Of a DNA stretch of 64,000 nt, positions 15,346-43,478 are shown piece by piece. Made by a program: the position numbers and the translations under genes. The DNA is from Saliniramus fredricksonii. GTDB lineage: Bacteria > Pseudomonadota > Alphaproteobacteria > Rhizobiales > Beijerinckiaceae. Location: the NCBI RefSeq assembly GCF_900094735.1, contig NZ_FMBM01000003.1, positions 248,001 through 312,000 of the forward strand, given 5' to 3'. Position 1 is the stretch's first letter. Every line of letters begins with the position of its first letter. Under the pieces are notes generated by a model that made no database searches, had not been told where the DNA came from, and saw only the letters and a program-made list of their open reading frames with translations.

Positions 15346-16545
15346 TCAGGGGGCTGGCACGAGACGCAGGATACGCCCGTTTTCAGCATCGGTCAGGAGA
15401 TAAAGTGCCCCGTCGGGCCCGTTGCGCACATCGCGAATGCGTTCGCCGAGCCCGCCCAGCATCCGCTCCTCCGCGATCACGGCATCGCCGGCGAATGTCA
15501 GGCGCGACAGGAGCCGCCCGGCAAGCGCGCCGACGAAGAGATCGCCCCGCCATTGCGGAAAGGCATCACCCTCATAGAACGCCATGCCCGAGGGCGCGAT
15601 CGAGGGGTCCCAGTAGAAGACCGGCTGCGTCATCCCCTCTTCATGTGTGCCCAGACCGATCGGCGCGCCGGAATAATGCACCCCGTAAGCAATGACCGGC
15701 CAGCCGTAATTCAGCCCCGGTTCGATCAGATTGATCTCGTCGCCCCCGCGTGCACCGTGTTCATGGGCCCAGAGCTGCTCCGTTCCGGGACGCATGGCGG
15801 CGCCCTGGACGTTACGATGTCCGATCGACCAGATTTCCGGCGCCCAGCCCGGCATGCTTTCATGCGGATTGCCGGCCGGGATCGAACCGTCGGGATTGAT
15901 GCGCATGATCGCGCCGATATGGTTGGCCGGCTCCTGCGATTCGTCGGAATGGGAGCCGCGATCGCCGGCGGTGATGAACAGCGTCCCGTCGGGATGGAAG
16001 ACGAGCCGCGAACCGAAATGACGCCCGCCGGATAAAGCCGGCATCTGACGGAAGATCACCTGCGGTGTCGCGAAAGCCTCGGCCTCCCGGTCCAGCGCCG
16101 CCCGCGCGACACTCAGCCCGATGCCGCCACCGCGCTCCTCCGCATAAGCCATGTAGACGCGGCGGTTTTCCGCGAAATCCGGGTCGAGGGCGATGTCGAG
16201 CATACCGCCCTGGTTGATGTCGGCGACCGGCGGCGTGCCGGCGAGCGGATCCGAGACGCGCCCATCGGGCGTGACGAGACGGACCGTGCCGGCGCGCTCG
16301 GTGACGAGCATGGCGCCATCGGGGAGGAAGGCGAGGCTCCAGGGGTGCCTGAGACCCGAGGCCACGGTCTCGACGAGAAGTTCGTAGTCCTGCGTGGCGA
16401 CACGCTCGGGCGCCGGATTGGCCTGTGCCTGGGCGCTCCCGGTCAAGGCCGGCCCCGCCAGGGCAGCGATCCCGGCGAACGACAGGGCCAGCGCAACCTT
16501 GCGCATGCGCCGATATTGCAGAAATCGCAACGTCACATCCGCCAT
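15346..16545 (-). CDS. Secreted PQQ-dependent aldose sugar dehydrogenase-like protein
   Basis: A 399-residue six-bladed beta-propeller of the soluble glucose dehydrogenase/YliI family, which oxidises sugars in the periplasm with pyrroloquinoline quinone. Motifs: GLRHPWSLAFLPDGAMLVTE (the catalytic His region), GGRHFGSRLVFHPDGTLFIT, GDRGSHSDESQEP, IWSIGHRNVQGAAM, HEHGARGGDEINLIEPGLNYGWP and RIRDVRNGPDGALYLLTD. A signal peptide ends near AQAQA. The ATG at 16545 has GGAG eight bases upstream; a second ATG at 16506 would also keep the signal peptide. No PQQ synthesis genes are in the window. Confidence 0.87.
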   Translation of the reverse strand: MADVTLRFLQYRRMRKVALALSFAGIAALAGPALTGSAQAQANPAPERVATQDYELLVETVASGLRHPWSLAFLPDGAMLVTERAGTVRLVTPDGRVSDPLAGTPPVADINQGGMLDIALDPDFAENRRVYMAYAEERGGGIGLSVARAALDREAEAFATPQVIFRQMPALSGGRHFGSRLVFHPDGTLFITAGDRGSHSDESQEPANHIGAIMRINPDGSIPAGNPHESMPGWAPEIWSIGHRNVQGAAMRPGTEQLWAHEHGARGGDEINLIEPGLNYGWPVIAYGVHYSGAPIGLGTHEEGMTQPVFYWDPSIAPSGMAFYEGDAFPQWRGDLFVGALAGRLLSRLTFAGDAVIAEERMLGGLGERIRDVRNGPDGALYLLTDAENGRILRLVPAP

Positions 16546-16576
16546 CGTATCATCTCCGATTCCTACACGCCGCCGC

Positions 16577-16590
16577 TTGATGATCATCAA
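16577..16590. promoter_or_regulatory. Perfect 14-base palindrome upstream of the sugar dehydrogenase gene
   Basis: TTGATGATCATCAA is a perfect palindrome 32 bases before the ATG at 16545, a position suited to an operator. The surrounding gap (16546-16874, about 330 bases) holds no gene that I can support. The core ATGATCAT recurs in the lysR-dabB spacer at 31277-31284. Confidence 0.4.
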
Positions 16591-16874
16591 ACGGCACGCT
16601 TGTCGAGCGAGGTACCGTTTCGCAGCCAGGTGTCAAGATCGGGAGCGGGGAAAGGGTGGGAGTGCGAGGCTGAACAGTTGATTGGTCAGCCCTGCATCTG
16701 TCTGACGCGAAAGCGTTACCCACATCCATGTCAACCGGAGCCGCCGACAGAGCGCCGGCTTTCTTCAAGGCAGGCAAAGCTGCCATCCTCACATTCGAAC
16801 ACCGACCATGACATCTGCACCGGTTTCATTGCGAGCAACCGGCCTGGCACCCGATAGGCATCCTTGCTGCCGGA

Positions 16875-17747
16875 TCACGCGGAAAGCCTGCGATGCCGAA
16901 AGCGTTCGACAAGGAGCATATGGGGCACTGTCAGTGCCGCCAGACCGATAAACACGACACGCAGCACAGAGCTTTCGAGATCAACCCCGTCAACATGCAG
17001 GAACAGCCCCAATGCGATGCTCGCGCCGAGCAGGGATACGACCATGATACCCGCCGCCGCGCGCAAGGCAGCCTTGCGTTCCGGCAATGCCTGCAGCGTA
17101 TCACGCATGTGTCGCAGCGAGTGAAGCAGACAGAAATAGGCGATAAAGTAGAGGAGTGGCGGCAGGATTGCCGCCCCGATCCAGATTCCGACAAGTTCGA
17201 GCAGCGCTTCGCGCGCGTGCCGCGACATCTGCAGGAGCGCAATCAGGCCAAGGCTTGCGCCGATCAGTCCGGCCACGGCGATGGCATATGCTATCGGCTC
17301 GGCCCAGACTCCATGGCTCAGCACGGAAAAGATCGACACGACATCCGTGACATGAAACAGCGCCGGAGCTCCGATGACCGATAACCCGCCCGCAATACGC
17401 AAGAGCAGCCCGTCCATCTCCCAGTCGCCCGAGAAATGCAATGCAGAATAGGCCAGAAAGGCGATCAGGGCCAGTCCGGGGGCAAGCCACCACAAGGCCG
17501 CGACTGCGCCGGCAATGCCGATATAGGCGCCATAAAACAGCATGTGATCAGCCGCACCGGTCAGCGGCCACAGCACGCGTGCCATTGGCAGATCCAGCGC
17601 GCCGTGCGGCAGCCCGAGCAGCGCGACCGCCGGCGCAAGCAGGAGTGCCTGCGTCAGGGGGCCGGGCGCAAAGACCATGTCGAGCGCCGCCAGCACGAGC
17701 AGGCCCGCGAGAAATATCCCGCTCTGGACAGGCCGGTCCAGGGTCAT
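16875..17747 (-). CDS. blh: Brp/Blh-type beta-carotene 15,15'-dioxygenase
   Basis: A 290-residue integral membrane enzyme that splits beta-carotene into two retinal molecules. Many hydrophobic helices carry conserved histidines of the Brp/Blh family: LGLPHGALDLPMAR, YSALHFSGDWEMD, LHSLRHMRDTL and VPHMLLVERF. The ATG at 17747 overlaps the crtY stop (ATGA), and this sets the start. It is the last gene of the rhodopsin operon and completes retinal synthesis. The family's reaction is established by biochemical work on Blh; the assignment here rests on motifs and context. Confidence 0.93.
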   Translation of the reverse strand: MTLDRPVQSGIFLAGLLVLAALDMVFAPGPLTQALLLAPAVALLGLPHGALDLPMARVLWPLTGAADHMLFYGAYIGIAGAVAALWWLAPGLALIAFLAYSALHFSGDWEMDGLLLRIAGGLSVIGAPALFHVTDVVSIFSVLSHGVWAEPIAYAIAVAGLIGASLGLIALLQMSRHAREALLELVGIWIGAAILPPLLYFIAYFCLLHSLRHMRDTLQALPERKAALRAAAGIMVVSLLGASIALGLFLHVDGVDLESSVLRVVFIGLAALTVPHMLLVERFRHRRLSA

Positions 17748-18847
17748 GTCAGGCCCGATGCGGCGCGCAGGAACGGCATGGAGGGCAGCGCCCACATCAC
17801 CGAAAGACGATCATCGCTGCGGGTCGATCCCGACAGAAAGCGCTCGAGCCGATCGGCCGGCGTGTTGCGAAACAGGGCCTCGAACAGGGCCGGCCCGCGT
17901 TCCGGCGCAGCCGCGAGAACCCGCAGGAAGACCCGGTCCATGAAGCGGCTGACGGCACTGTCTTGTGGTATACGCGGATTCTCCCCGCGCAGAAGCTGAC
18001 CCGCGACATGATCCGCATGCATCTGGATGCGCTGAAACGCATATCCCGTCGATGGGCGCGCCGCTCCTCCCGCAAGGCCGATATGGCAAATGCCGGGAAC
18101 CTCAGGTGCCCGATAGCCGACCTCCATGGGAAGGGCGCCGGCCTCTTCGCGAACCAGATCATGGTCACAAGCGCCCAGAGCGACGATTTCCGCGTCCAGC
18201 CAGGCGCGCATATCCGCTCGCTCCGGAGGCTGGGGGGCGAAGGACGTCACCTCTATCAGGGCACGATCTCGGGCAAAGGGCAGAATGTAGAGGAAATCGA
18301 TACCCGTGCTGTAGCCGCGCCTGAAATGCATCAACGGCACGGTATCGGCATCGAAGATTGCCTGCGCTGTGACGATTTCGCGCCCCACGAAGAACTGGCC
18401 GTAGGCGGGGCGGCGCGTGGGCGGTCGGGCATCGCATACATGGCGGGCACTGAAACCGCCATCCGATGTCTCGATCCACATGCCGTCACCCTTCGGCCTG
18501 ACCGATCCCGCCGTCGATCCAGGCGCGATGCTCCCGCTGCGCGCATCGTCGATCAGATCAAGGGCCCGATCGTAGAAGGCGCCGGAGGCGACGGATTGGT
18601 AGGGGAACCGGCGCGAGCCCCGCAGGACGGCCCCACCCGGCCCGGATACCGTCCATCGCGTCCAGCTGGCGCGCACGCAATCCTCGAACGGATCGGGGCC
18701 CGTGCGCCAGAATGACCATGTCCGGTCATCGTCGTATCGGCGGCGTGGCTCGATGACGCGGAAGGAAAGTCTCGTCGGCGCAAGTCTCGCGGCCAGGCTC
18801 AGCCCCGCGCATCCGCCGCCGAGAATGGCCACGTCGACATCAGGCAT
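17744..18847 (-). CDS. crtY: Lycopene beta-cyclase
   Basis: A 367-residue flavoprotein that cyclises both ends of lycopene to give beta-carotene. N-terminal dinucleotide-binding motif AILGGGCAGLSLAARL, then DDDRTWSFW, a central IDFLYILPFARDRALIEVTSF block, and VGYRAPEVPGICHIGLAGGAARPSTGYAF near the C-terminus, all typical of CrtY. The start at 18847 lies eight bases inside the end of crtB, and the stop overlaps the blh start. No hydroxylase or ketolase gene lies nearby, so the product is expected to be beta-carotene. Confidence 0.95.
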   Translation of the reverse strand: MPDVDVAILGGGCAGLSLAARLAPTRLSFRVIEPRRRYDDDRTWSFWRTGPDPFEDCVRASWTRWTVSGPGGAVLRGSRRFPYQSVASGAFYDRALDLIDDARSGSIAPGSTAGSVRPKGDGMWIETSDGGFSARHVCDARPPTRRPAYGQFFVGREIVTAQAIFDADTVPLMHFRRGYSTGIDFLYILPFARDRALIEVTSFAPQPPERADMRAWLDAEIVALGACDHDLVREEAGALPMEVGYRAPEVPGICHIGLAGGAARPSTGYAFQRIQMHADHVAGQLLRGENPRIPQDSAVSRFMDRVFLRVLAAAPERGPALFEALFRNTPADRLERFLSGSTRSDDRLSVMWALPSMPFLRAASGLT

Positions 18848-19718
18848 GCACGTCTCCCGCGCGCGCGGATCCCGTTCCCGCCGCGCCCTGCCGGGCAAGC
18901 GCGAGAACCGCGCCGCATGCCAGTCGCAGCTTGCGCGGCCCGTTGACATAGACACGTCCGGTCAGGGGGTCGTGGTCACGTTCACGCAGCTCCGCACCGA
19001 TGCCGCGATAAATGGCGGAAGATGCCGCTACGGCAAGGCGGAGGCGCAGGGGAAGGGCCCCGAGCCCGGCGCGCCCCGAGGCATAGAGGTATTCCGCGCG
19101 GTGCAGGAGCGTGGCGACTGCGGCGCGGATATCGGCGCGAATGCGTGGCGTGGGATCTGCAATGTCTTCCGGCTGCCAGCGACAGAGCGCAGCCGGCAGA
19201 TATCGCCGCCCGGCGCGGGCGTCCTCGGCCACATCCCGGCAGATATTGGTCAGCTGCATGGCCTTGCCGAGATCCGCTGCGGCGCCGTGAAAACGTTTTT
19301 CGACGTCGAAAAGATCGGCGATCATGATGCCGACCGTGCCTGCAACGGCATGGGTATAGGCATCGAGGGCAGCGTAATCCGCAATCCGGACCGCGCCGAT
19401 ATCACCACGAACGCCATCCACCAGCATGGCGAAAGCATCGAGGCCGCAGGGCCGCCCCGCAAACAGCGCGCGCGCCCTGTCCACGATCGGATCCGCGTCG
19501 TGAGCCTCCGAATCGCCGTGACGCAAGGCGAAGCTGATTGCCTCAAGGCGGGCCGCAGCAGCGTCACTTCCGTCTTCATCGGCCAGATCATCGACGAACC
19601 GGCAAAGCGCATAGAGTTGTGCGACTCTCGACCGGTCGGCACGGGCCAGAATGCGCGCCGCCGGTGCGAAGCTGCGTGCGTGTCGTGCCATGATCGCTTC
19701 TGCCTCGGCGCCGGTCAT
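18840..19718 (-). CDS. crtB: Phytoene synthase
   Basis: A 292-residue squalene/phytoene synthase-family enzyme that condenses two geranylgeranyl diphosphates head to head. The first Asp-rich site is in LYALCRFVDDLADE and the second in QLTNICRDVAEDARAGRRYLP. ARSFAPAARIL near the N-terminus carries the conserved SF pair. The ATG at 19718 overlaps the crtI stop by ATGA. A longer frame exists upstream but runs through crtI and is not coding. Confidence 0.96.
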   Translation of the reverse strand: MTGAEAEAIMARHARSFAPAARILARADRSRVAQLYALCRFVDDLADEDGSDAAAARLEAISFALRHGDSEAHDADPIVDRARALFAGRPCGLDAFAMLVDGVRGDIGAVRIADYAALDAYTHAVAGTVGIMIADLFDVEKRFHGAAADLGKAMQLTNICRDVAEDARAGRRYLPAALCRWQPEDIADPTPRIRADIRAAVATLLHRAEYLYASGRAGLGALPLRLRLAVAASSAIYRGIGAELRERDHDPLTGRVYVNGPRKLRLACGAVLALARQGAAGTGSARAGDVHA

Positions 19719-21220
19719 GCATCCAGCTCCACCTTCGGCAGCAGCTGGTCGAGCACCTTGGCCGATGAGATCACACCCGGAAGCCCGGCACCCGGATGCG
19801 TACCGGCGCCGACGAAGTAGAGCCCCTTCACGCCCTCGCCCCGGTTGTGGAAGCGGAAAAAGGCGGATTGGGTAAAATCTGGTGAAAGCGAGAATCCGGC
19901 CCCGTCGACCGACAGGTAATCGTCGCGAAAATCTTCTGGAGTCATGGCGAATTCGGCGGTGATCGTCTCGGCCAGCCCCGGCAGCATGGTTGCATCCAGC
20001 GCCGCGACGATCCGGTCGCGCAGGCGCGGCCCCTCGATGGCCCAATCCTGCCCGCCGGACAGGTTGGGCACCGGGCAGAGCACGTAGAAGCTGTCACATC
20101 CTTGCGGTGCAAAAGAAGGGTCTGTCGCCGTGGGACGATGGACGTAGAGGGAAAAATCCTCCGCCAGGTGCTTGTGGTGGAAGATGTCGGCCAAGAGCTC
20201 CCGATAGCGTTCGCCGAACCAGACGGTGTGGTGCGCGACATCCGGCCAGGTTTTGCGGGCACCGAAATACAACACGTAGAGCCCCATCGACAGGCGCGCT
20301 GTCTTCTGACGCAGCCGCGCCACTTTGGACTGCACATGCGTGGGCAGCATTTTCCGATAGACATGCATCGGATCCATGTTGGAGACGACGATATCCGCAG
20401 GCAGGTGGCGACCGTCATCCAGATCGACACCCGTGGCCTGGTTGCCGTTCAGGCTGATCCGCTCGACCGTGGTCCCCAACGATATCGCGATGCCCTGTTC
20501 GATCATGAGCCGGTGCAGCGCATCGATGAGGGCACCGGTGCCGCCCATGGCGAACCAGACACCATGTTCGCGTTCGAGATAGTTGATCATCCCGTAGATC
20601 GCGGTCGTATCGAACGGGTTGCCGCCGACCAGAAGAGGCTGGATCGAGAACGCGCGCCGTATCCGGTCATCCTTGAGGTGGCGCGAAACCATCTGCCAGA
20701 CGCTCTCATAGCCCCGCAGCCGGATCAGCTCCGGTATCTGCCGCGCCATGAATGCCGGCGAATGAAAGGGCGCGGAGGCGAGTTTCGTAAAGCCGACATC
20801 ATAAATCCGCTTTGACCAGGCACCCATGCGCCGATAGCCCTCGACGTCATCCGGTGACAACCGCGCGATCTCGGCCTCGGTACGCGCCTCGGTCGGCCCG
20901 TAATCGAAGGTTTCGCCGTCAGGATACCAGAAACGATACCACGGGTCGGGCTGGACCAGCGTGACGTAATCGCCGATATCCTTGCCGAACAGGCCAAAAA
21001 GCTCTTCGAAGAGCCCAGGCGCCGTCAGGACCGTCGGCCCGGCATCATGGCGGAAGCCGTCCTTCTCGAAGACCTGTGCGCGACCACCGAGCCGCGGGCA
21101 GCGATCAATGAGATGCACGGAATAACCCAGCGCGCGCAAGCGCAACGCCGCGGAAATCCCTCCGAAACCGGCGCCGGCCACGATGGCATGCGCAGTGGAG
21201 AAGCGCGTTTCATGTCGCAT
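19715..21220 (-). CDS. crtI: Phytoene desaturase
   Basis: A 501-residue FAD-dependent desaturase that converts phytoene to lycopene. The N-terminus has a Rossmann motif AIVAGAGFGGISAALRLRAL and GGRAQVFEKDGFRHDAGPTV. PLLVGGNPFDTTAIYGMINYLE and YFVGAGTHPGAGLPGVI near the C-terminus are bacterial CrtI signatures. The start at 21220 is 11 bases inside crtE. Another ATG at 21213, which would overlap the crtE stop, is out of frame and was not used. Confidence 0.97.
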   Translation of the reverse strand: MRHETRFSTAHAIVAGAGFGGISAALRLRALGYSVHLIDRCPRLGGRAQVFEKDGFRHDAGPTVLTAPGLFEELFGLFGKDIGDYVTLVQPDPWYRFWYPDGETFDYGPTEARTEAEIARLSPDDVEGYRRMGAWSKRIYDVGFTKLASAPFHSPAFMARQIPELIRLRGYESVWQMVSRHLKDDRIRRAFSIQPLLVGGNPFDTTAIYGMINYLEREHGVWFAMGGTGALIDALHRLMIEQGIAISLGTTVERISLNGNQATGVDLDDGRHLPADIVVSNMDPMHVYRKMLPTHVQSKVARLRQKTARLSMGLYVLYFGARKTWPDVAHHTVWFGERYRELLADIFHHKHLAEDFSLYVHRPTATDPSFAPQGCDSFYVLCPVPNLSGGQDWAIEGPRLRDRIVAALDATMLPGLAETITAEFAMTPEDFRDDYLSVDGAGFSLSPDFTQSAFFRFHNRGEGVKGLYFVGAGTHPGAGLPGVISSAKVLDQLLPKVELDA

Positions 21221-22079
21221 GATCGGCCTCCATGACGCGCATCCCGGCAAGGCCGGTTTCGACGCGATCCGCCAGCGCCGCGAGCGGGAGGCCTGCCCTT
21301 CGGGGAACGGTCCGGGCTGCATCGCGTGAAGCAGCGAGTTGGGCACGCGCATACGCGGCCGCCCTCGCCCGCGCGCTGCTCACAGAATGACCAGCATTGA
21401 TCGAGGTCGCGACGATGTTTGTCGTTCCCGCCAGCCTGTCCCCTTCCAGATCGGACAGATCATCCGCGATCTGATAGCCTGATGCCAGGAGCGTGGCAGC
21501 GCGCATGACGTGGCGGTCGTCTTCGATCTCAGCCAGAATCAGGCAAAGCCGCACGGGGAGCGCGATCAACGGCCCCGACTTCGCGCCGGCAATGTCGATG
21601 GCGCGCTCGAACGACAAATCCGATGTCGCAGAAAGATCATCGACCTGGCCGGCAATGGTTGCGGCCACGGCCTCGTGCATGACCGCAACAGCGCGGCCCG
21701 TGCGCGATGTCGCGGCAGATACGAGTGCGGCATAAGCGGCGGATAACAGCAAATCCCCCGCGCATAATGCCGAAGCGGCGCCGAAGCGGGCCCAGAGCGC
21801 AGGTTGCCCGCGACGCGTGGTGTCCCCATCCTGCAAGTCATCATGCACAAGCGAAGCATTGTGGAGCAGTTCCGACGCAGCAGCAACGGCGATGTTCGTG
21901 GCTTCCGGCAGGCCCAGAATGCGGGCGGTGTCGAGGGCGAGGCGCGCGCGCACCCTGTTCCCTCCTGCATCCAGGTGACGACATGCATGCGATGCAGCGG
22001 TTCCGTGACCCAGCATCTCCCGCATCCTGATCTCGACCGACGGCATCACGTCGACAGCGAAACTGTTATCGTGTTTCAT
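21210..22079 (-). CDS. crtE: Polyprenyl (geranylgeranyl) diphosphate synthase
   Basis: A 289-residue trans-prenyltransferase expected to make the C20 precursor for phytoene. The first Asp-rich motif is LVHDDLQDGDTTRRGQP and the second YQIADDLSDLEGD. GQVDDLSAT and KSGPLIALP lie between. The first motif is DDxxD rather than the DDxxxxD often seen in bacterial short-chain synthases, so chain length is less certain than the operon suggests. The ATG at 22079 follows a GGAAGG ribosome site. A 226-base spacer with a hairpin separates it from the rhodopsin gene. Confidence 0.92.
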   Translation of the reverse strand: MKHDNSFAVDVMPSVEIRMREMLGHGTAASHACRHLDAGGNRVRARLALDTARILGLPEATNIAVAAASELLHNASLVHDDLQDGDTTRRGQPALWARFGAASALCAGDLLLSAAYAALVSAATSRTGRAVAVMHEAVAATIAGQVDDLSATSDLSFERAIDIAGAKSGPLIALPVRLCLILAEIEDDRHVMRAATLLASGYQIADDLSDLEGDRLAGTTNIVATSINAGHSVSSARARAAAYARAQLAASRDAARTVPRRAGLPLAALADRVETGLAGMRVMEADHAT

Positions 22080-22104
22080 TTCGTGCCTTCCACCCGCGAG
22101 AGAA

Positions 22105-22118
22105 AAAACAGATGTTTT
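22105..22118. promoter_or_regulatory. Small palindrome in the crtE leader
   Basis: AAAACA and TGTTTT are exact inverted arms around GA, 26-39 bases before the crtE ATG in an AT-rich leader. This could be an operator for a separate crtE promoter or a short leader hairpin. No regulator can be named from the sequence. Confidence 0.3.
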
Positions 22119-22268
22119 CTTGTTGTAAAATATCTCCGGAATGAAAACCGTTTCGCTGAATCTGGCCGGCATGACGATTTTCAACGCATGATGACTTTGG
22201 ATGAACGAGACACATTTTCGGCAAAATTCTGTTCTGGCGTTGACGTCTTGTCGAAGCCCGGATGAAAT

Positions 22269-22298
22269 ATCGCTCGCCAGACTGGTCTGGCGAGCGAT
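22269..22298 (-). terminator. Strong hairpin between rhodopsin and crtE (attenuator or 3' stabiliser)
   Basis: Perfect inverted arms ATCGCTCGCCAGAC and GTCTGGCGAGCGAT are separated by two bases, starting eight bases past the rhodopsin stop. On the minus strand the stem is followed by only a weak T-containing stretch (ATTTCAT), so it is not a textbook terminator. It would fit partial termination, or protection of the rhodopsin mRNA 3' end, so that far more rhodopsin than carotenoid enzyme is made. Confidence 0.65.
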
Positions 22299-22305
22299 GC
22301 AGGCC

Positions 22306-23133
22306 TTATTTCGCTGTTTTGGCGGATCCGCCGGCACTGCTCGGTTCTTTGGCAGTTCCGGTGCCCGGGACAGCAACCCTTTCGCCGGTCTCGTTTTCCG
22401 ATTTGCGGATCGCGATTGCCAGGATCAGAAGCCCGAATACGGCTTTCGCCACGATATCGGCAATGGTGTAACCGACCTCGACAGCCACGATTGCTGCGCC
22501 CCCGGTGAGACCGATGAGCGGGAAAAGGAAGACGATCGGGTAGAACAACCACGACACAACAACAAGATAGGCGGCCCCGTTGATGAGCCCGCGAACGTTC
22601 TCAGGCTGCTTGTCAATCGAGCCACGAAGGCCGATCACCAGCTGATAGACGATGTAGAGGAACGGGATCATCGACAGGACCCAGAAGGTGAACCTCACGC
22701 CTGCCGTATCCGCCACTTCGCCGGGATATCCGAGGATGATCATCAAGGCCGCTGCACCACCGAGCCACACGCTCTTGGAGATGGTCTCGCCGCGCGCGAG
22801 CTTCATGACGAGGATGAGTTCAACGAGAAGAAGCGGGACAGTCAGCAACCAGTCGACGTAGCGATACGCCTGGTTGAATGGCGATCCGGTGGTTTCAATC
22901 GTGTCCACGGTAACGGAAAATGCTGATTGCCATGACAGCATGATCTGGAGGTAGTGATACCCGGCAATGGCCGTTACGAGGCCTGAAATTGTTATCGCCA
23001 TTCTGTAATTGGGCGTAACAAGACCCCGGGAAAACCAGAGAAACAAAGTCGTTGCGGCCATTACGGCCAAACCGAACGAGAATGCGTTCTGGACAAATTC
23101 ATATTGCCCGATCGTGAGTGATTCCAGTTCCAT
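22306..23133 (-). CDS. Microbial rhodopsin, predicted light-driven proton pump
   Basis: A 275-residue seven-helix retinal protein. Helix C reads RYVDWLLTVPLLLVE: Arg91, Schiff-base counterion Asp94, Thr98 and proton donor Glu105, the DTE set of proton pumps. Leu102 sits at the proteorhodopsin spectral-tuning position, where Leu gives green absorption. The retinal-binding lysine is Lys230 in YTIADIVAK. His60 in GYHYLQIM is 34 residues before Asp94, a xanthorhodopsin-like spacing with a longer B-C loop than in proteorhodopsin. Near the carotenoid-antenna window in helix E (FWVLSMIPF) I align a bulky Trp151 instead of Gly, so no antenna is predicted. The ATG at 23133 has GGGAGGG six to seven bases upstream. 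All retinal genes lie downstream on the same strand. Confidence 0.95.
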   Translation of the reverse strand: MELESLTIGQYEFVQNAFSFGLAVMAATTLFLWFSRGLVTPNYRMAITISGLVTAIAGYHYLQIMLSWQSAFSVTVDTIETTGSPFNQAYRYVDWLLTVPLLLVELILVMKLARGETISKSVWLGGAAALMIILGYPGEVADTAGVRFTFWVLSMIPFLYIVYQLVIGLRGSIDKQPENVRGLINGAAYLVVVSWLFYPIVFLFPLIGLTGGAAIVAVEVGYTIADIVAKAVFGLLILAIAIRKSENETGERVAVPGTGTAKEPSSAGGSAKTAK

Positions 23134-23803
23134 TGGATACCCTCCCAGAGGTTCTTCCATACAGCCTTGCTTGCATGGAGCTTGGTCAAAGCAACTGGCG
23201 AGAATTGCTCGAATGCGCCCGCGACCCATGCCGCGCGGCATCCGATCAACTGTGGCACGTTCTAAAAATTGCCATAATGTGCGACGGTTTGGCACAGATG
23301 TTCCGGAAACGAGGCCTGCGACGAAATGTTGCTGCGCGCATTTGTAACTGCGTCGCGCCATTCATTTGCGACGGGCGCGCGCACCGCGCCATTCCGGGCC
23401 GCCGGCTCTTGCATCAACGCCGCCGGCTCTTGCATCAACGGATCGATCTGCGGAAATCGCGGCGTTCACTTGCCAGCCATGCACGTGGTACAATAATGCC
23501 TTGCTTGTCGGACGGTGCACCGTGACGCGGGTATCTTCTGCTCCGCGCCCGGAGCCAATCGCAGGCATATTCAAGCCGCTGGATGACCCTTTGGCCCATG
23601 CGGATGCGCAGGGGCAACGCGGCAGGGGGAACCAACGGCTGGCGTTTCGTTCCGTCAGCCGGGCACCCGCTGCCAGAGAAAACGATGCGTCGTACATCTT
23701 TTTCGGGCGCCTGCCCTGACTCCGTCCGGTCGGCATGCGTTATAAAATCGTGCTTCAGGAATTCAGCGCGCCGCTGGCGCTCTCGCGAGGAAATCAGCCC
23801 ACC
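23134..23803. promoter_or_regulatory. 670-base divergent spacer between rhodopsin and exoD-like gene
   Basis: It holds no gene that I can support and must contain the promoters of the rhodopsin operon (minus) and probably of the ExoD gene (plus). I could not assign -35/-10 boxes with confidence. A TGT...ACA pair lies on the rhodopsin side, but its 13-base gap does not match the 12-base PpsR/CrtJ site. The exact 21-base tandem duplication at 23398-23439 is listed separately. Confidence 0.45.
23398..23439. repeat. Exact 21-base tandem duplication
   Basis: The unit beginning GCCGCCGGCTCTTG is present twice head to tail without mismatch (23398-23418 and 23419-23439). It lies about 265 bases upstream of the rhodopsin start. 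On the minus strand it would read VDARAGG twice within an open frame (23362-23736) that I consider non-coding. Confidence 0.95.
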
Positions 23804-31355: not shown

Positions 31356-32918
31356 ATGAGTTCATCGCCATCTTTGAGCATGCTTGCTCCCATATTCATT
31401 CTTCTGATTGCGGGTTACGCTGCATTTTACCCGGGTCGCCGACCCGGCGGCCTGCCGCTCCTGACCGAACGTGTCGCGATCGCGGCCCTGGTGGCGGCGG
31501 TCGCGGGTGGCATCCAGCTTGTTTTCGCGGGCCCGCAGAGCTTCGCGCTTGGCGGTGATGCGTTGATGATCGCGTTCCGCCTTGATGCGCTGAGTGTGAC
31601 CATGACGATCCTCGTGGCCTTCATCGGCTGGATCGTCGTGCGTTACGCGCGCACCTATCTGGATGGCGAGCAGCGCGAAGGCGCCTTTCACGGCTGGATG
31701 GCCGTCACCCTGGCCAGCGTGCTTCTGCTCGTTCAGGCGGGCAGTCTCGTCACGCTGGTTCTGGCATTCGTGGCGATCGGCTTCGGCTTGCGCCAGCTGC
31801 TGCTGTTCTATCCCGACCGTCCTGAAGCACAGCGGGCAGCCGCGAAATTCACGCTGGTCTGGGCCGGCGGCGATATCGCGCTGGCGCTCGCCTCGATCCT
31901 GCTCTGGATCGCATTCGGCACGAGCGACATCGCGTCGATCGCGGCGCAGGCGGAGGGTGGCGCGGGCTTCGCGATGCATGCAGCCATCGCGCTTCTGGTG
32001 CTCACCGCCGCTCTCAAGACAGCGGCCTTCCCGCTGCATGGCTGGCTGACGGAGGTCATGGAGGCGCCCACTCCCGTCTCCGCCCTGCTGCATGCGGGCA
32101 TCATCAATGCCGGCGGCTTCCTCTTGATCCGCATGGCCGATCTGATCCAGACCAGCACGGCGGCCATGGCGGCCCTGCTGATGCTCGGCGGGTTCACCGC
32201 GCTTTTCGCGGCTGCAGTGATGCTGACGCAGAGCGCGATCAAGACGGCGCTGGCCTGGTCGACCATCGCGCAGATGGGCTTCATGCTTCTGCAATGCGGG
32301 CTGGGTCTGTGGACTCTGGCGCTTTTGCACATCGTCGCCCACTCGCTCTACAAGGCGCATGCCTTCCTCGCTTCCGGCGGTGCCGTGAAGGCCGTGGCCG
32401 AAATCCGGCGCCCGGGACCCGTCGCGGTGCCGGGCCTCGGCGCAGTCCTGCGGGCCTTCTCGCTCGCGCTCGTGCTCTATGCGCTGGTGGCGACCTTGTT
32501 CGGCTTCGTCTTCGGTGCGAAATCAGCGCAGGCCCTGTCGCTCGGCGCCATCCTGATCTTCGGTGTCGCCTATCTGGTGGCGCAGGGCATGGCCGATACC
32601 GCGCCGCGTGAGCTCACGCGACGCACGGTGATGGCGTCTTTCGCCGCCACGCTCGCCTATTTCGGATTTCATCTCGTGGCCGATCTGGTCTGGGGAGCGC
32701 ACCTGCCCGCCGCGCCGGCGCCGGGTCCGCTGGAATGGGGGCTGATCGTGCTGATGCTGTTCTCCTTCGGTCTGATCGCCGTGGCCCAAGCGCTGTTTCC
32801 GCTCTGGGCCCACCATCCCGCAGCGGCGGGACTGCGCGTGCATCTGGCGAACGGCCTTTATCTCAACGCCGTCCTCGATCGCATGATCGGCGGTTTCACA
32901 ACCCCGAAATCCCGTTGA
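31356..32918 (+). CDS. dabB: DabB: proton-channel subunit of the DAB inorganic carbon system
   Basis: A 520-residue membrane protein of the NuoL/MrpA antiporter-like family with about 13-14 helices. The proton-channel core LKTAAFPLHGWLTEVMEAPTPVSALLHAG is split by lysine and proline as in complex I subunits, and KTALAWSTIAQMGFMLLQ and HIVAHSLYKAHAFLASGG follow. It sits alone with dabA and not in a nuo or mrp operon, which marks it as DabB, the pmf-coupling half of the DAB (DIC accumulation) complex. The ATG at 31356 has GGAG eight bases upstream. In this organism cation flow might be H+ or Na+; the sequence does not decide. Confidence 0.9.
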   Translation: MSSSPSLSMLAPIFILLIAGYAAFYPGRRPGGLPLLTERVAIAALVAAVAGGIQLVFAGPQSFALGGDALMIAFRLDALSVTMTILVAFIGWIVVRYARTYLDGEQREGAFHGWMAVTLASVLLLVQAGSLVTLVLAFVAIGFGLRQLLLFYPDRPEAQRAAAKFTLVWAGGDIALALASILLWIAFGTSDIASIAAQAEGGAGFAMHAAIALLVLTAALKTAAFPLHGWLTEVMEAPTPVSALLHAGIINAGGFLLIRMADLIQTSTAAMAALLMLGGFTALFAAAVMLTQSAIKTALAWSTIAQMGFMLLQCGLGLWTLALLHIVAHSLYKAHAFLASGGAVKAVAEIRRPGPVAVPGLGAVLRAFSLALVLYALVATLFGFVFGAKSAQALSLGAILIFGVAYLVAQGMADTAPRELTRRTVMASFAATLAYFGFHLVADLVWGAHLPAAPAPGPLEWGLIVLMLFSFGLIAVAQALFPLWAHHPAAAGLRVHLANGLYLNAVLDRMIGGFTTPKSR

Positions 32919-32945
32919 TTTCCTCGATTGCAGGCAGATAACACC

Positions 32946-35351
32946 ATGCTCATCCAAGATCATCATCCTGACGACATGAACGCCGGCGCGTTGCTCACTG
33001 CCGTGGAGGGTGCCGCTCGCGCCATCCCGCCGGCATTTCCCCTTGATGCGACGGTTGCCGTGAATCCCTTCCTCGGCCAGACCCGTGAGGATCTGGCCAC
33101 AGCCTCGGCCCGGCTGGCGCGGGTCGCAGGCGTGCGCCTCGTTCGTGAGCGCGCTACCTATCGCGGCGAGATCGAATCCGGAGCGATCACGCGCGAGGAC
33201 CTCGCGGGAGCGCTCGCGGCCTGCTCGTCGACCTCGAAGCCGGCTGATCTCGCGGAACTGGAACAGGCGCTGCTGTCACAGAGCCCGGCTCCCGGGGCGC
33301 TGCCCACCCTTGCCGAGCTGGCTGCCGGTGCAAGCGGCACGGACTGGCCGGAACTGATCAAGCGCAGCTTCGGCCTCTGGGCTGCCGGCCATTTCGATCG
33401 CGGGCAGGCGCTCTGGTCCCCGGCTCCGGGGCGCGCCGCGCTCGACGCCTGGCGGGACTGGGCGCGCCATGACCTGACCCCCGAGATTGCGGGCCTCACG
33501 GGTTTTTGCAGCCATGCCATCGATGCGCCGGACACCGCCGACCGGGTGATCCTGCGCGCAGCCGAGCGGCTGGGCATCACCGAGGCCAATGCGCAGACGA
33601 TTTTCCACCGGCTGCTGGTCGATCTGGGTGGATGGGCCCAGCATGCGCGCTGGCTGCTCTGGGAAGCGGAACTCGCCGGGGAGACGGATGCGACGATCGC
33701 GGAATTGCTGGCGATCCGGCTGATCTGGGAAGAAGCGCTGCTTGCGCAATATCCCCAGCTCGCCTCAGCCTGGGAAGAGACGCGCGCCGCACATGAGCAA
33801 CCCGTCGCGCCCACGCGCGATCAGGTGATCGACGCCATCCTCCAGGAGGCCGCCGAGCGGGCCCGTCAGCGGCGGATCGAAGCCATGCTGCCAGGCGCCC
33901 AGCCCCGTGAGGGCCGGCCCGCAATCCAGGCCGCCTTCTGCATCGACGTGCGCTCGGAAGTCTTCCGGCGCGCGCTGGAAAGCCTCGATACCGACATCGC
34001 GACGATCGGCTTTGCCGGGTTCTTCGGCCTGCCCGTATCACATTGCGGCCACGGTACCGACAGGCGCGAGGCGCATCTGCCGGTGCTGTTGACCCCGGCT
34101 CTCGAGGCCTGCAGCCACAGCGACGCCCACACCGAACAGGATGTCCGGATCCGGGCGCGGGCGCGGCGCGCCTGGGGACGCTTCCGGCAGGCGGCGGTGT
34201 CTTCCTTCGCCTTCATCGAGGCCGCGGGACCGATCTATGGCTGGAAGCTCGTCAAGGATACCCTGGCGCTCGATCACGGCGGCAATCATGGTACCACGGC
34301 GGCATCCGCGGACTCGACCAATCCGCCGCCGCGCTTCGAGGAGCCGCTGACGGCAGAGGCCAAGGCCGCCACCGGCGCAGCAGTTCTCCAGGCGATGAGC
34401 ATGACCGAAGGCCATGCCCGCCTCGTCCTGCTCGTTGGCCATGGCGCGCATGTCACCAACAACCCGCATGAGAGCGCCTATCATTGCGGCGCCTGTGGCG
34501 GACAGACCGGCGAAGTATCCGCACGCCTTCTCGCGAGCCTGCTCAACGACCCCGAAACCCGTGCCGGCCTGCCCGGGCACGGCATCGATTTGCCGGAGGA
34601 TACCGTCTTCGTGGCGGGTCTGCACGACACCACGACCGATACGGTCACGCTCTACGAGGACGAACCCGCGCCGGCACATTCCGCCGATCTGGAGCAGGCG
34701 CGCAGCTGGCTCGCGCGGGCGGGCGATCTGGCCCGCACGGAACGGGCCGCGCGTCTGCCGGGGGCTGATGCCGCGCGCATTGCGCAACGTGCCTTCAACT
34801 GGGCGGAGGTGCGCCCCGAATGGGGGCTGGCCGGGTGTGCCGCCTTCATCGCGGCGCCGCGTGCGGCGACGACCGGAACCGACCTTCAGGGGCGCAGCTT
34901 CCTGCACAGCTATGACTGGCGCACGGATGCACAATTCAAGACGCTGGAGCTGATCCTCACGGCTCCCGTCGTCGTGGCGAGCTGGATCAGCCTGCAATAT
35001 TACGGGTCGAGCGTGGCGCCGGAGCTGTTCGGCGGCGGCAACAAGCTGATCCACAACGTCGTCGGCGGCATCGGCGTCGTGCAGGGCAATGGCGGGATGA
35101 TGCGCCCGGGCCTGCCCTGGCAGGCGGTTCACGATGGCGTCAACCTCGCCCACGAACCGCTGCGGCTGTCGATCTATATCGAGGCGCCGCAGGAGGCGAT
35201 CAGCGCGATCCTGGCACGCCATGATGAGGTGCGCGCCCTGTTCGACAACGGCTGGCTCCACCTGTTCACCCTGGAGGGCGGGCGTGTCGCGGGGCGCTAT
35301 CGCCCGGGGCTCGTCTGGGAGAATGACACGCCCCGTTCCGTCGCCGCGTGA
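32946..35351 (+). CDS. dabA: DabA: carbonic-anhydrase-like subunit of the DAB system (DUF2309)
   Basis: An 801-residue soluble/peripheral protein of the DUF2309/UPF0753 family, which works with DabB to turn CO2 into trapped bicarbonate, powered by the ion gradient. The zinc-site residues established for Halothiobacillus DabA are all present with the same spacing: Cys332 and Asp334 in FCIDVRSE, and His499 and Cys514 (15 apart) in VGHGAHV and [16 protein letters not shown] near the N-terminus and [20 protein letters not shown] near the C-terminus are further family blocks. The ATG at 32946 is chosen over an in-frame TTG at 32928. It lies 27 bases after dabB. Confidence 0.95.
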
Positions 35352-41388: not shown

Positions 41389-42903
41389 TCAACCGTTTTG
41401 CAGCATCCCGGCGATCTCGCGGAACGGGTCGCGGCTGCGCGGTGAGGACGGGTCCTGGCGCAGGGCGTCGTAGAGGCGCGGCACGATGGTCACGGCCTGG
41501 TCGAGATCGGCATCGTGACCGGGCTGGTAGCCGCCCATCAGGCGCAGATCGCGCGTTTCCTCGAAACGGGCGACGAGGGCGAGGAAGCGGCGCACCACGC
41601 CCTGCTCCTCCGCACTCCAGACCTTGCGCGCCAGCCGCGAGATCGAGCCGAGCGGATCCATGGCGGGAAAACGTCCACGATCGGCAATGGTGCGATCGAG
41701 CACGATATGGCCGTCCAGCGTGCCCCGGATGTTGTCGGCCACGGGATCGTTGTGGTCGTCGCCGTCGACGAGCACCGAGAACAGCCCGGTGATCGTGCCG
41801 GCGCCCTCGCATCCGGGACCGGCGCGCTCCAGCAGGCGCGGCAGGTCGCTGAACACGCTCGGGGGAAAGCCGCGCGAGACGGCGGGTTCGCCGGCCGCCA
41901 GCGCCACGTCGCGGGCGGCATGGGCGTAGCGCGTGACCGAATCGACGATCATCAGCACCTTCTCGCCGCGATCGCGGAAATACTCGGCGATGGCCATGGC
42001 GGTATTGGGGGCGAGGCGGCGCATCATCGGGCTCTCGTCCCCGGTCGAAACCACCATCACGGCCTTGGAGCGGGCCTCGCCCAGCGTTTCCTCGAGGAAC
42101 TCGCGGACTTCCCGCCCGCGCTCGCCAACCAGCGCGATCACCACCGTGTCGAAACCTTCCGCGCCGGCGAGCATCGAGAGCATGGTGGATTTGCCGACGC
42201 CCGAGCCGGCGAAGATGCCGATGCGCTGCCCGGCACAGAGCGGCGTGAACAGATCGACCATGCGCACGCCCGTGCGGATATGCGCGCCGACGCGGGCGCG
42301 ATGCATGGCCGGCGGCGGTTCGGCGAAGGGGAAGACGCGCCGCTCACCCAGGGGAAGGGCGCCGCCATCGTCAATGGGCTTGCCCAGCGCATCAAGGACG
42401 CGCCCGCGCCAGCCCGCATGCGGATGCAGCGAGACCGCCTCCATGCGATGCACCTCGGCACCGAGCCGGGCGTCGATCGCGCCCTCGAAAGGCTTGACCG
42501 TGGCCCCGCCCGCATCAATGCGCACCACCTCGCCGATCTGGGGCCGGGCATCCCCATTTGCGGGAAGGACGACGCGCTCCCCCAGTTTGAGGAAGGGGGA
42601 GAGCCCCCCGACGCGGTAGAAAGCCGGCGTCACCGCGCTGACCCGCCCCCCGATACGCACAAGAGGCAGATCCTGCGTGGCGCGGGCCATGGCGTCGCCC
42701 AGCCCGTCGAGGGCATCGGGCGCCGATTCCGCGCGATCTCCCCTCTCCCGCCGTGGAGAGGAGCCGGGGGTGAGGGGCGGCGCAGAAGAATCGTCGCCGT
42801 TGATTTCCGTCGCCTGCTTCATCCCGGTTTCGCTCAATTCTGATACCTCCTCACCCCCAACCCCTCTCCACCCCGGAGAGGGGAGTTCTGTCTTAAGCTT
42901 CAT
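41389..42903 (-). CDS. fliI: Flagellar export ATPase FliI with a repeat-derived N-terminal extension
   Basis: The catalytic ATPase of the flagellar type III export apparatus, with F1-beta-like fold. Walker A GIFAGSGVGKSTML, ALVGERGREVREFLE, Walker B VLMIVDSVTRYAHAARDV and GTLDGHIVLDR are intact. The ORF is 504 residues, about 60 longer than usual. The extra N-terminus (residues about 4-62) is translated from two inverted REP-like palindromes (LPSPGWRGVGG and PPLTPGSSPRRERG). The ATG at 42903 overlaps the upstream stop (ATGA) and so looks real; the conserved protein begins near MARATQDLPLVRIGGRV (ATG at 42690). Confidence 0.93.
   Translation of the reverse strand: MKLKTELPSPGWRGVGGEEVSELSETGMKQATEINGDDSSAPPLTPGSSPRRERGDRAESAPDALDGLGDAMARATQDLPLVRIGGRVSAVTPAFYRVGGLSPFLKLGERVVLPANGDARPQIGEVVRIDAGGATVKPFEGAIDARLGAEVHRMEAVSLHPHAGWRGRVLDALGKPIDDGGALPLGERRVFPFAEPPPAMHRARVGAHIRTGVRMVDLFTPLCAGQRIGIFAGSGVGKSTMLSMLAGAEGFDTVVIALVGERGREVREFLEETLGEARSKAVMVVSTGDESPMMRRLAPNTAMAIAEYFRDRGEKVLMIVDSVTRYAHAARDVALAAGEPAVSRGFPPSVFSDLPRLLERAGPGCEGAGTITGLFSVLVDGDDHNDPVADNIRGTLDGHIVLDRTIADRGRFPAMDPLGSISRLARKVWSAEEQGVVRRFLALVARFEETRDLRLMGGYQPGHDADLDQAVTIVPRLYDALRQDPSSPRSRDPFREIAGMLQNG
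42739..42885. repeat. Inverted pair of REP-like palindromic units inside the fliI frame
   Basis: Unit B on the plus strand (42846-42885) reads CTCCTCACCCCC, then CCTCTCCACCCCGGAGAGG. Unit A (42739-42779) carries the same order on the minus strand: CCCCTCACCCCC, then CCTCTCCACGGCGGGAGAGG. Each holds a CCTCTCC/GGAGAGG stem. About 66 bases separate them, giving a head-to-head, BIME-like arrangement. The CCCTCACCC...CCTCTCC type is common between genes in Hyphomicrobiales, but here the reading frame runs straight through it. Confidence 0.85.
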
Positions 42904-43478
42904 GGAGGCGCAGGCCAGCCGTTTGCGGTAGCGGTCTGCGCCTCGCGAGCGAGGTGGCGCTGATGCAGATCTTCGAGCACGTCAGCCGGCAGCTGATTCG
43001 CGTCGGCCCGGGCCAGCCCCTCGACGGATGGCAGTGATCTCCCCACACGATCGGCATCGAGCATCGCGCTGAGCGCGGCGATCTCGTCCGCCCGCGCGAC
43101 ATCGGGCGCAGGGCCCTGCGCGGCGTCGCGTTCGCGCGGCAGATCGGGCAGAGGCGGCAGCGCGTTCGGATCGGGATTGAAGCCGCCCGGCTGCGAGACA
43201 TGGCCACGCAGGATGCTGGTGCGCAGAAAATCGAGACGCGGCTTGTCCGCCGTGGCGGGATCGGTCGCTGCGTCCACGTCCGCGGTTTTCTGCCCGCTCT
43301 CGTCGAGCCTGTCGGAGAGTGTTGCGGTGAAATCCTGCACCGGCTCGGCGTTCAGCGCCTGGCGGGCGTGGTTGAGGGCATTCACGAGGCGCAGGCTGTG
43401 ATCGCTGCGCGCGAGCACCACGCGATCAGGCGAAGCCGCGCCGCTTGCAGCACCGATGACGGCGGGCGCCTCACTCAT
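42900..43478 (-). CDS. Unknown protein in the flagellar block
   Basis: A 192-residue protein, hydrophilic, without signal peptide or membrane helix, rich in Ala, Asp and Pro. Helical stretches at about 25-60 (LVNALNHARQALNA) and 130-185. I recognise no domain. Its start and stop each overlap its neighbours by ATGA (flgF before, fliI after), so it is translated as part of the flagellar operon and probably has a flagellar assembly role. The rhizobial flagellar cluster has small unknown proteins at this place. Confidence 0.7.
   Translation of the reverse strand: MSEAPAVIGAASGAASPDRVVLARSDHSLRLVNALNHARQALNAEPVQDFTATLSDRLDESGQKTADVDAATDPATADKPRLDFLRTSILRGHVSQPGGFNPDPNALPPLPDLPRERDAAQGPAPDVARADEIAALSAMLDADRVGRSLPSVEGLARADANQLPADVLEDLHQRHLAREAQTATANGWPAPP

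Follow-up and report, generated by a model that had tools for sequence, protein, structure and literature searches.

Marine proteorhodopsin cassettes that include crt genes and blh combine, as a single unit, a proton pump with the full pathway to retinal. The same logic is found in the gene clusters that surround the opsins of xanthorhodopsin subgroup II (Vollmers et al., PMC3646047), whose likeness to the marine cassettes was noted in that study. Opsins of this subgroup occur in conserved clusters with retinal genes and do not bind keto-carotenoids. Most of them have a Trp at the antenna position, and a Trp at the position of Gly156 in Salinibacter xanthorhodopsin (XR) abolishes such binding. 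The subgroup II opsins that were tested did not bind salinixanthin, proton pumping was demonstrated for those of Octadecabacter, and examples of the subgroup have their absorption maximum at 533-535 nm (PMC3646047). The genome paper of Spiribacter also put its opsins in subgroup II and showed the same gene cluster (PMC3832224). This kind of light-energy operon and its function are already known. Here, we analyzed an operon of this type that adds a new detail: judged from its gene trees, the pump gene comes from a salt-loving gammaproteobacterial lineage and the pigment genes are of different ancestry. For this locus we computed the gene content, the motifs, the opsin clade, the mosaicism, the synteny break, and a stem-loop.

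The window, i.e., the whole stretch of 64,000 nucleotides under analysis, carries six intact minus-strand genes between 16875 and 23133, in the order rho-crtE-crtI-crtB-crtY-blh (Table 1), where the first-pass annotation had placed them. The four start/stop overlaps that it described are real and measure 11 bp (crtE/crtI), 4 bp (crtI/crtB), 8 bp (crtB/crtY), and 4 bp (crtY/blh), while rho and crtE do not overlap and are separated by a gap of 226 bp. CrtE has both Asp-rich motifs (DDLQD and DDLSD), and Blh has the conserved His48, His104, His209, His213, and His276. Hence, with crtE, crtI, crtB, crtY, and blh all present, a complete route through beta-carotene to retinal is encoded, and the genes of the operon include neither a hydroxylase nor a ketolase, as had been proposed. 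The description of the operon as self-sufficient stands for the full retinal route, but not beyond it: isoprenoid precursors must be supplied by the host, which already has another Blh-family gene (see below). No RNA families or tRNAs were found in the window. Upstream of rho, a 21-nt sequence is present in two exact head-to-tail copies (23398-23439).

Table 1. Coordinates of the operon genes and associated features in the window.
Feature	Positions	Strand	Length	Description
rho	22306-23133	minus	275 aa	xanthorhodopsin subgroup II opsin; Bac_rhodopsin 143 bits
crtE	21210-22079	minus	289 aa	GGPP synthase; polyprenyl_synt 134 bits
crtI	19715-21220	minus	501 aa	phytoene desaturase; crtI_fam TIGR02734 566 bits (cut-off 238)
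crtB	18840-19718	minus	292 aa	phytoene synthase; SQS_PSY 172 bits
crtY	17744-18847	minus	367 aa	lycopene cyclase; Lycopene_cycl 190 bits
blh	16875-17747	minus	290 aa	beta-carotene 15,15'-dioxygenase; BCD 145 bits, blh_monoox TIGR03753 172 bits (cut-off 95)
stem-loop	22269..22298	minus		13-bp perfect stem between rho and crtE, 7 nt after the stop codon of rho
left synteny break	16429..16874	none		last position collinear with congener G003 at ~16428, within the adjacent GSDH gene (5' part)

The opsin carries exactly the set D94/T98/E105/K230 from which an outward proton pump had been predicted, together with H60 and L102. Among its relatives of solved structure, psXR, Gloeobacter rhodopsin, Kin4B8, and Salinibacter xanthorhodopsin rank first (E 8e-68 to 9e-62); the solved relatives cover nearly the entire protein in the alignment. 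In the same ranking, proteorhodopsin stands far lower than the xanthorhodopsins, and so do chloride and sodium pumps. The operon thus shares the logic of the marine cassettes, but its opsin is of the xanthorhodopsin group, from which proteorhodopsin is much more distant. The phylogeny places the opsin in the XR group, among proton pumps. Together, the DTE motif and the clade support an outward proton pump. That the protein instead senses light, or pumps chloride or sodium, seems extremely unlikely to us, given this motif with K230, its placement among proton pumps, the far lower rank of the chloride and sodium pumps, and, for a sensor, that none of the adjacent genes scanned encodes a transducer.

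Relative to Salinibacter xanthorhodopsin, Gloeobacter rhodopsin, and Kin4B8, which belong to subgroup I, the opsin shares the fold family and the proton-pump residues, but the site of the carotenoid antenna differs. Residue 151 is a Trp, where the aligned residue in three references is the carotenoid-pocket Gly (XR Gly156), and a Trp is found at this position in all 24 of the related loci compared, among them the Spiribacter ones. The residues at XR positions 160, 194, 197, 198, and 201 (Met, Tyr, Val, Val, and Leu in the opsin) are all changed with respect to Salinibacter XR, and position 205 is an unchanged Ile. A tree with the window opsin and the subgroup I references as one clade was rejected (AU p=0.0007). 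Since the opsin has Trp151 and changed slot residues along helix F, the marks of a lost antenna site, lies in the XR group outside subgroup I, and is nested among Spiribacter opsins, we conclude from sequence and phylogeny that it is a member of subgroup II, the antenna-less class already published. The crtE-crtI-crtB-crtY-blh cluster next to it is also characteristic of that subgroup, and both content and gene order are like those of the clusters in Spiribacter (PMC3832224) and Octadecabacter (PMC3646047), where no antenna is expected either. One might nevertheless imagine that the opsin binds a light-harvesting carotenoid made by the host, like Salinibacter xanthorhodopsin does, because it falls within the xanthorhodopsin group and a carotenoid cluster, apparently of the C30 type and with a glycosyltransferase, is present elsewhere in the host genome. 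We regard this as very unlikely: a Trp in place of the pocket Gly abolishes keto-carotenoid binding and the tested subgroup II opsins bound no salinixanthin (PMC3646047), five further positions differ from Salinibacter, and the operon has no hydroxylase or ketolase.

Taken as an antenna-less pump with its own chromophore, the operon would work as follows. CrtE would turn isoprenoid precursors of the host into GGPP, CrtB would convert GGPP to phytoene, and CrtI phytoene to lycopene; CrtY would then make beta-carotene, which Blh would cleave into two retinals. Retinal would bind Lys230 and, as Trp151 would close the antenna pocket, be the sole pigment of a probably green-absorbing opsin. Upon light-driven isomerisation, the proton of the Schiff base would pass to Asp94 (with His60) and leave the cell, and Glu105 would reprotonate the Schiff base from the cytoplasm. 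Such pumping, predicted from motif and clade, may aid the growth or survival of a heterotroph in the light. We hold it to be very probable that the locus encodes a light-driven outward proton pump that makes its own chromophore, in an operon of mosaic origin.

Two other genomes of the same order carry opsins that differ from this arrangement. In one (G409, L069:988-7115), the same six-gene operon has an opsin that is 62% identical and whose antenna residue is a Gly instead of the Trp, a feature also reported for Octadecabacter. In the other (G150, L071:8270-10040), an opsin (63%) is directly followed by blh; no crt genes were detected nearby, and beta-carotene would need another origin.

The evidence for mosaicism comes from the comparison of the opsin with the five retinal genes. 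The closest opsins found were those of Spiribacter and other Ectothiorhodospiraceae (Gammaproteobacteria), with 80-85% identity over the best segment, in a set of relatives that was collected via short conserved stretches of the window opsin and is biased to its own subgroup. In the opsin tree, the window is nested in the Spiribacter group as the sister of one of its loci, L004 (99/97), and comparisons with the Spiribacter/Ectothiorhodospiraceae loci give 81-83% identity. The retinal genes of the window are of another lineage, with identities to these loci of 31-34% for crtE, 60-61% for crtI, 32-39% for crtB, 34-38% for crtY, and 33-36% for blh. For comparison, two loci of the Spiribacter group (L003 and L004) whose opsins are also 83% identical share 52% in crtE, 79% in crtI, 56% in crtB, 49% in crtY, and 56% in blh. 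At the DNA level, the window resembles the Spiribacter group over the opsin ORF (22390-23133) and, beyond it, in conserved stretches of crtI only, at levels seen in other loci too. The GC content is 0.557 in the opsin and 0.62-0.67 in the crt genes.

The concatenated tree of the five retinal genes unites the Spiribacter group (100/100) without the window, which pairs with a MAG labelled as Variovorax (L015; 96/95). Forcing the window together with L004 in this tree costs 293 log-likelihood units and is rejected (AU p=6e-38). Conversely, a tree that pairs the opsin of the window with that of the Variovorax-labelled MAG is rejected as well (AU p=1e-4). That the retinal block of the window lies outside the entire Spiribacter group has moderate support (p=0.028). 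The six genes do not share one history, and as the phylogenies of the opsin and of crtE-blh differ significantly, at least two exchanges must have built the operon. Hence, on the evidence of these trees, the operon is a mosaic, with an opsin from the Spiribacter/Ectothiorhodospiraceae lineage and a crtE-crtI-crtB-crtY-blh block of different ancestry. The host would have received the pump from a hypersaline gammaproteobacterial lineage without that lineage's pigment genes.

The whole operon could instead have moved as one cassette from a Spiribacter-like donor, with the retinal genes alone diverging fast thereafter. This would account for a gene order identical to that of the donor group, for the long branch of the window in the retinal-block tree (1.2, against ~0.4 in the Spiribacter loci), and for the limited significance of its exclusion from the entire Spiribacter group. 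It would also require that the signal of the long stem of the Spiribacter group (length 1.06, 100/100) vanished from all five genes but not from the opsin; the firm rejection of the window with L004, the pairing of the block with the Variovorax-labelled MAG, and the differing GC contents argue against it too. We consider such a single transfer improbable and retain the mosaic. Accordingly, when the first-pass annotation spoke of a portable cassette, it was right about horizontal acquisition, which the synteny data below support, but not about transfer as one unit, with which the conflict between the opsin and crtE-blh phylogenies is at odds.

The locus is a clear example that opsin and retinal-pathway trees may disagree inside one tight operon. 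The same conflict separates the operons of Spiribacter and of Halomonas/Marinobacter, whose opsins form one group (100/99) while a corresponding clade in the retinal block is rejected (p=0.008). This recurrence underlies a broader reading, in which the opsin and crtE-blh are exchangeable modules and opsins were repeatedly swapped, at the rho/crtE gap, before unrelated blocks; to us the chances that it holds or fails are evenly balanced. If it does hold, phototrophy might spread by recombining parts as well as by moves of whole cassettes, a consequence on which we are equally divided. Were such disagreement between trees general, surveys of phototrophy based on opsins only would give a wrong picture of its spread, and recombination could be sought at the rho/crtE junction. 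We found no report of opsin swapping in such operons in the open-access literature. A published study reportedly treats the evolution and lateral transfer of haloarchaeal rhodopsins.

The gap between rho and crtE contains a stem-loop (Table 1) that folds better than expected (z -4.13), none of 200 shuffled sequences folding as well. We found significant folds in the same 70-nt stretch of 7 of the 11 related operons (z -2.5 to -6.0), with differing sequences; the other four, three Marinobacter loci and one alphaproteobacterial MAG, have no significant fold. The recurrence of a fold whose sequence is not conserved suggests that selection acts on the structure. The U-run of the window's stem-loop is weak, and a scan for terminators did not call it. 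The stem-loop likely stabilises the opsin mRNA or ends part of the transcripts; either way, it would probably hold the opsin mRNA above that of the enzymes and so favour the opsin over them.

The host is an alphaproteobacterium, as first proposed: its rpoB groups with those of two alphaproteobacterial MAGs (98/99), with 71-73% identity to them versus 58-61% to beta- and gammaproteobacteria. The placement was made by rpoB only, because no 16S was found in the assembly. There is no opsin match in three congeners (one of which is only 74% complete), and 60 relatives yielded only four distant opsins besides the window's own. Within the order, 12 of 397 genomes, counting that of the window, have a relative of Blh.

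The DNA is syntenic with that of congener G003 between 5.3 and 16.43 kb, and the synteny is lost ~450 bp short of the blh stop codon. On the right side, extended DNA similarity, now to congener G002, begins again at ~30.4 kb. The synteny break and the absence of opsin matches in the three congeners argue for horizontal acquisition. No joined empty site was found in G003 and G002, because the two flanks match different congeners. The stretch between the congener-matching flanks also carries ExoD, Na/Ca exchanger, MgtC, ABC-transporter, and ZIP genes, and looks accessory. A search of PLSDB gave no near DNA match for the 14-30 kb region, and the best opsin identity among plasmid matches was only 56%. 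Between the operon and ExoD lies an uncharacterised dispersed repeat of ~95 bp (23647-23746), copies of which (70-77% identity) occur in at least 8 other places of the host genome and in congeners. A further stretch of the window, 42730-42915, has many short matches (75-95%) spread over the congeners and is probably a second dispersed repeat.

Elsewhere in the host genome, the second Brp/Blh-family gene lies on contig C2 (L074:9685-10629; G000:C2:616685-617629). It scores 104 bits against an NCBIfam cut-off of 95, keeps the five conserved histidines, and is common to congeners G003 (81%) and G002 (47%), both without a rhodopsin match. This gene is resident in the host. On contig C1, at 226-236 kb (L042:8431-18082; G000:C1:226431-236082), we found two CrtI-family desaturases, a glycosyltransferase, and a tandem squalene/phytoene-synthase frame. 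We take the latter to be HpnC/HpnD-like and, by reading, further genes to be an HpnE-like oxidase and ispH; another, without Pfam match, is presumably an acyltransferase. The region looks like a C30-type carotenoid cluster and resembles the one that has reportedly been described for Methylobacterium extorquens. The additional CrtI-family genes raised the idea of dual phototrophy, which we discarded as the host genome (99% complete) has no match for the reaction-centre genes pufL/pufM (Photo_RC). Finally, a Proton_antipo_M gene and, after it, DabA (31356-35351) lie 8 kb away from the rhodopsin operon; they are partly conserved in congener G002 (71%) and probably form a DAB-type pair for the uptake of inorganic carbon.
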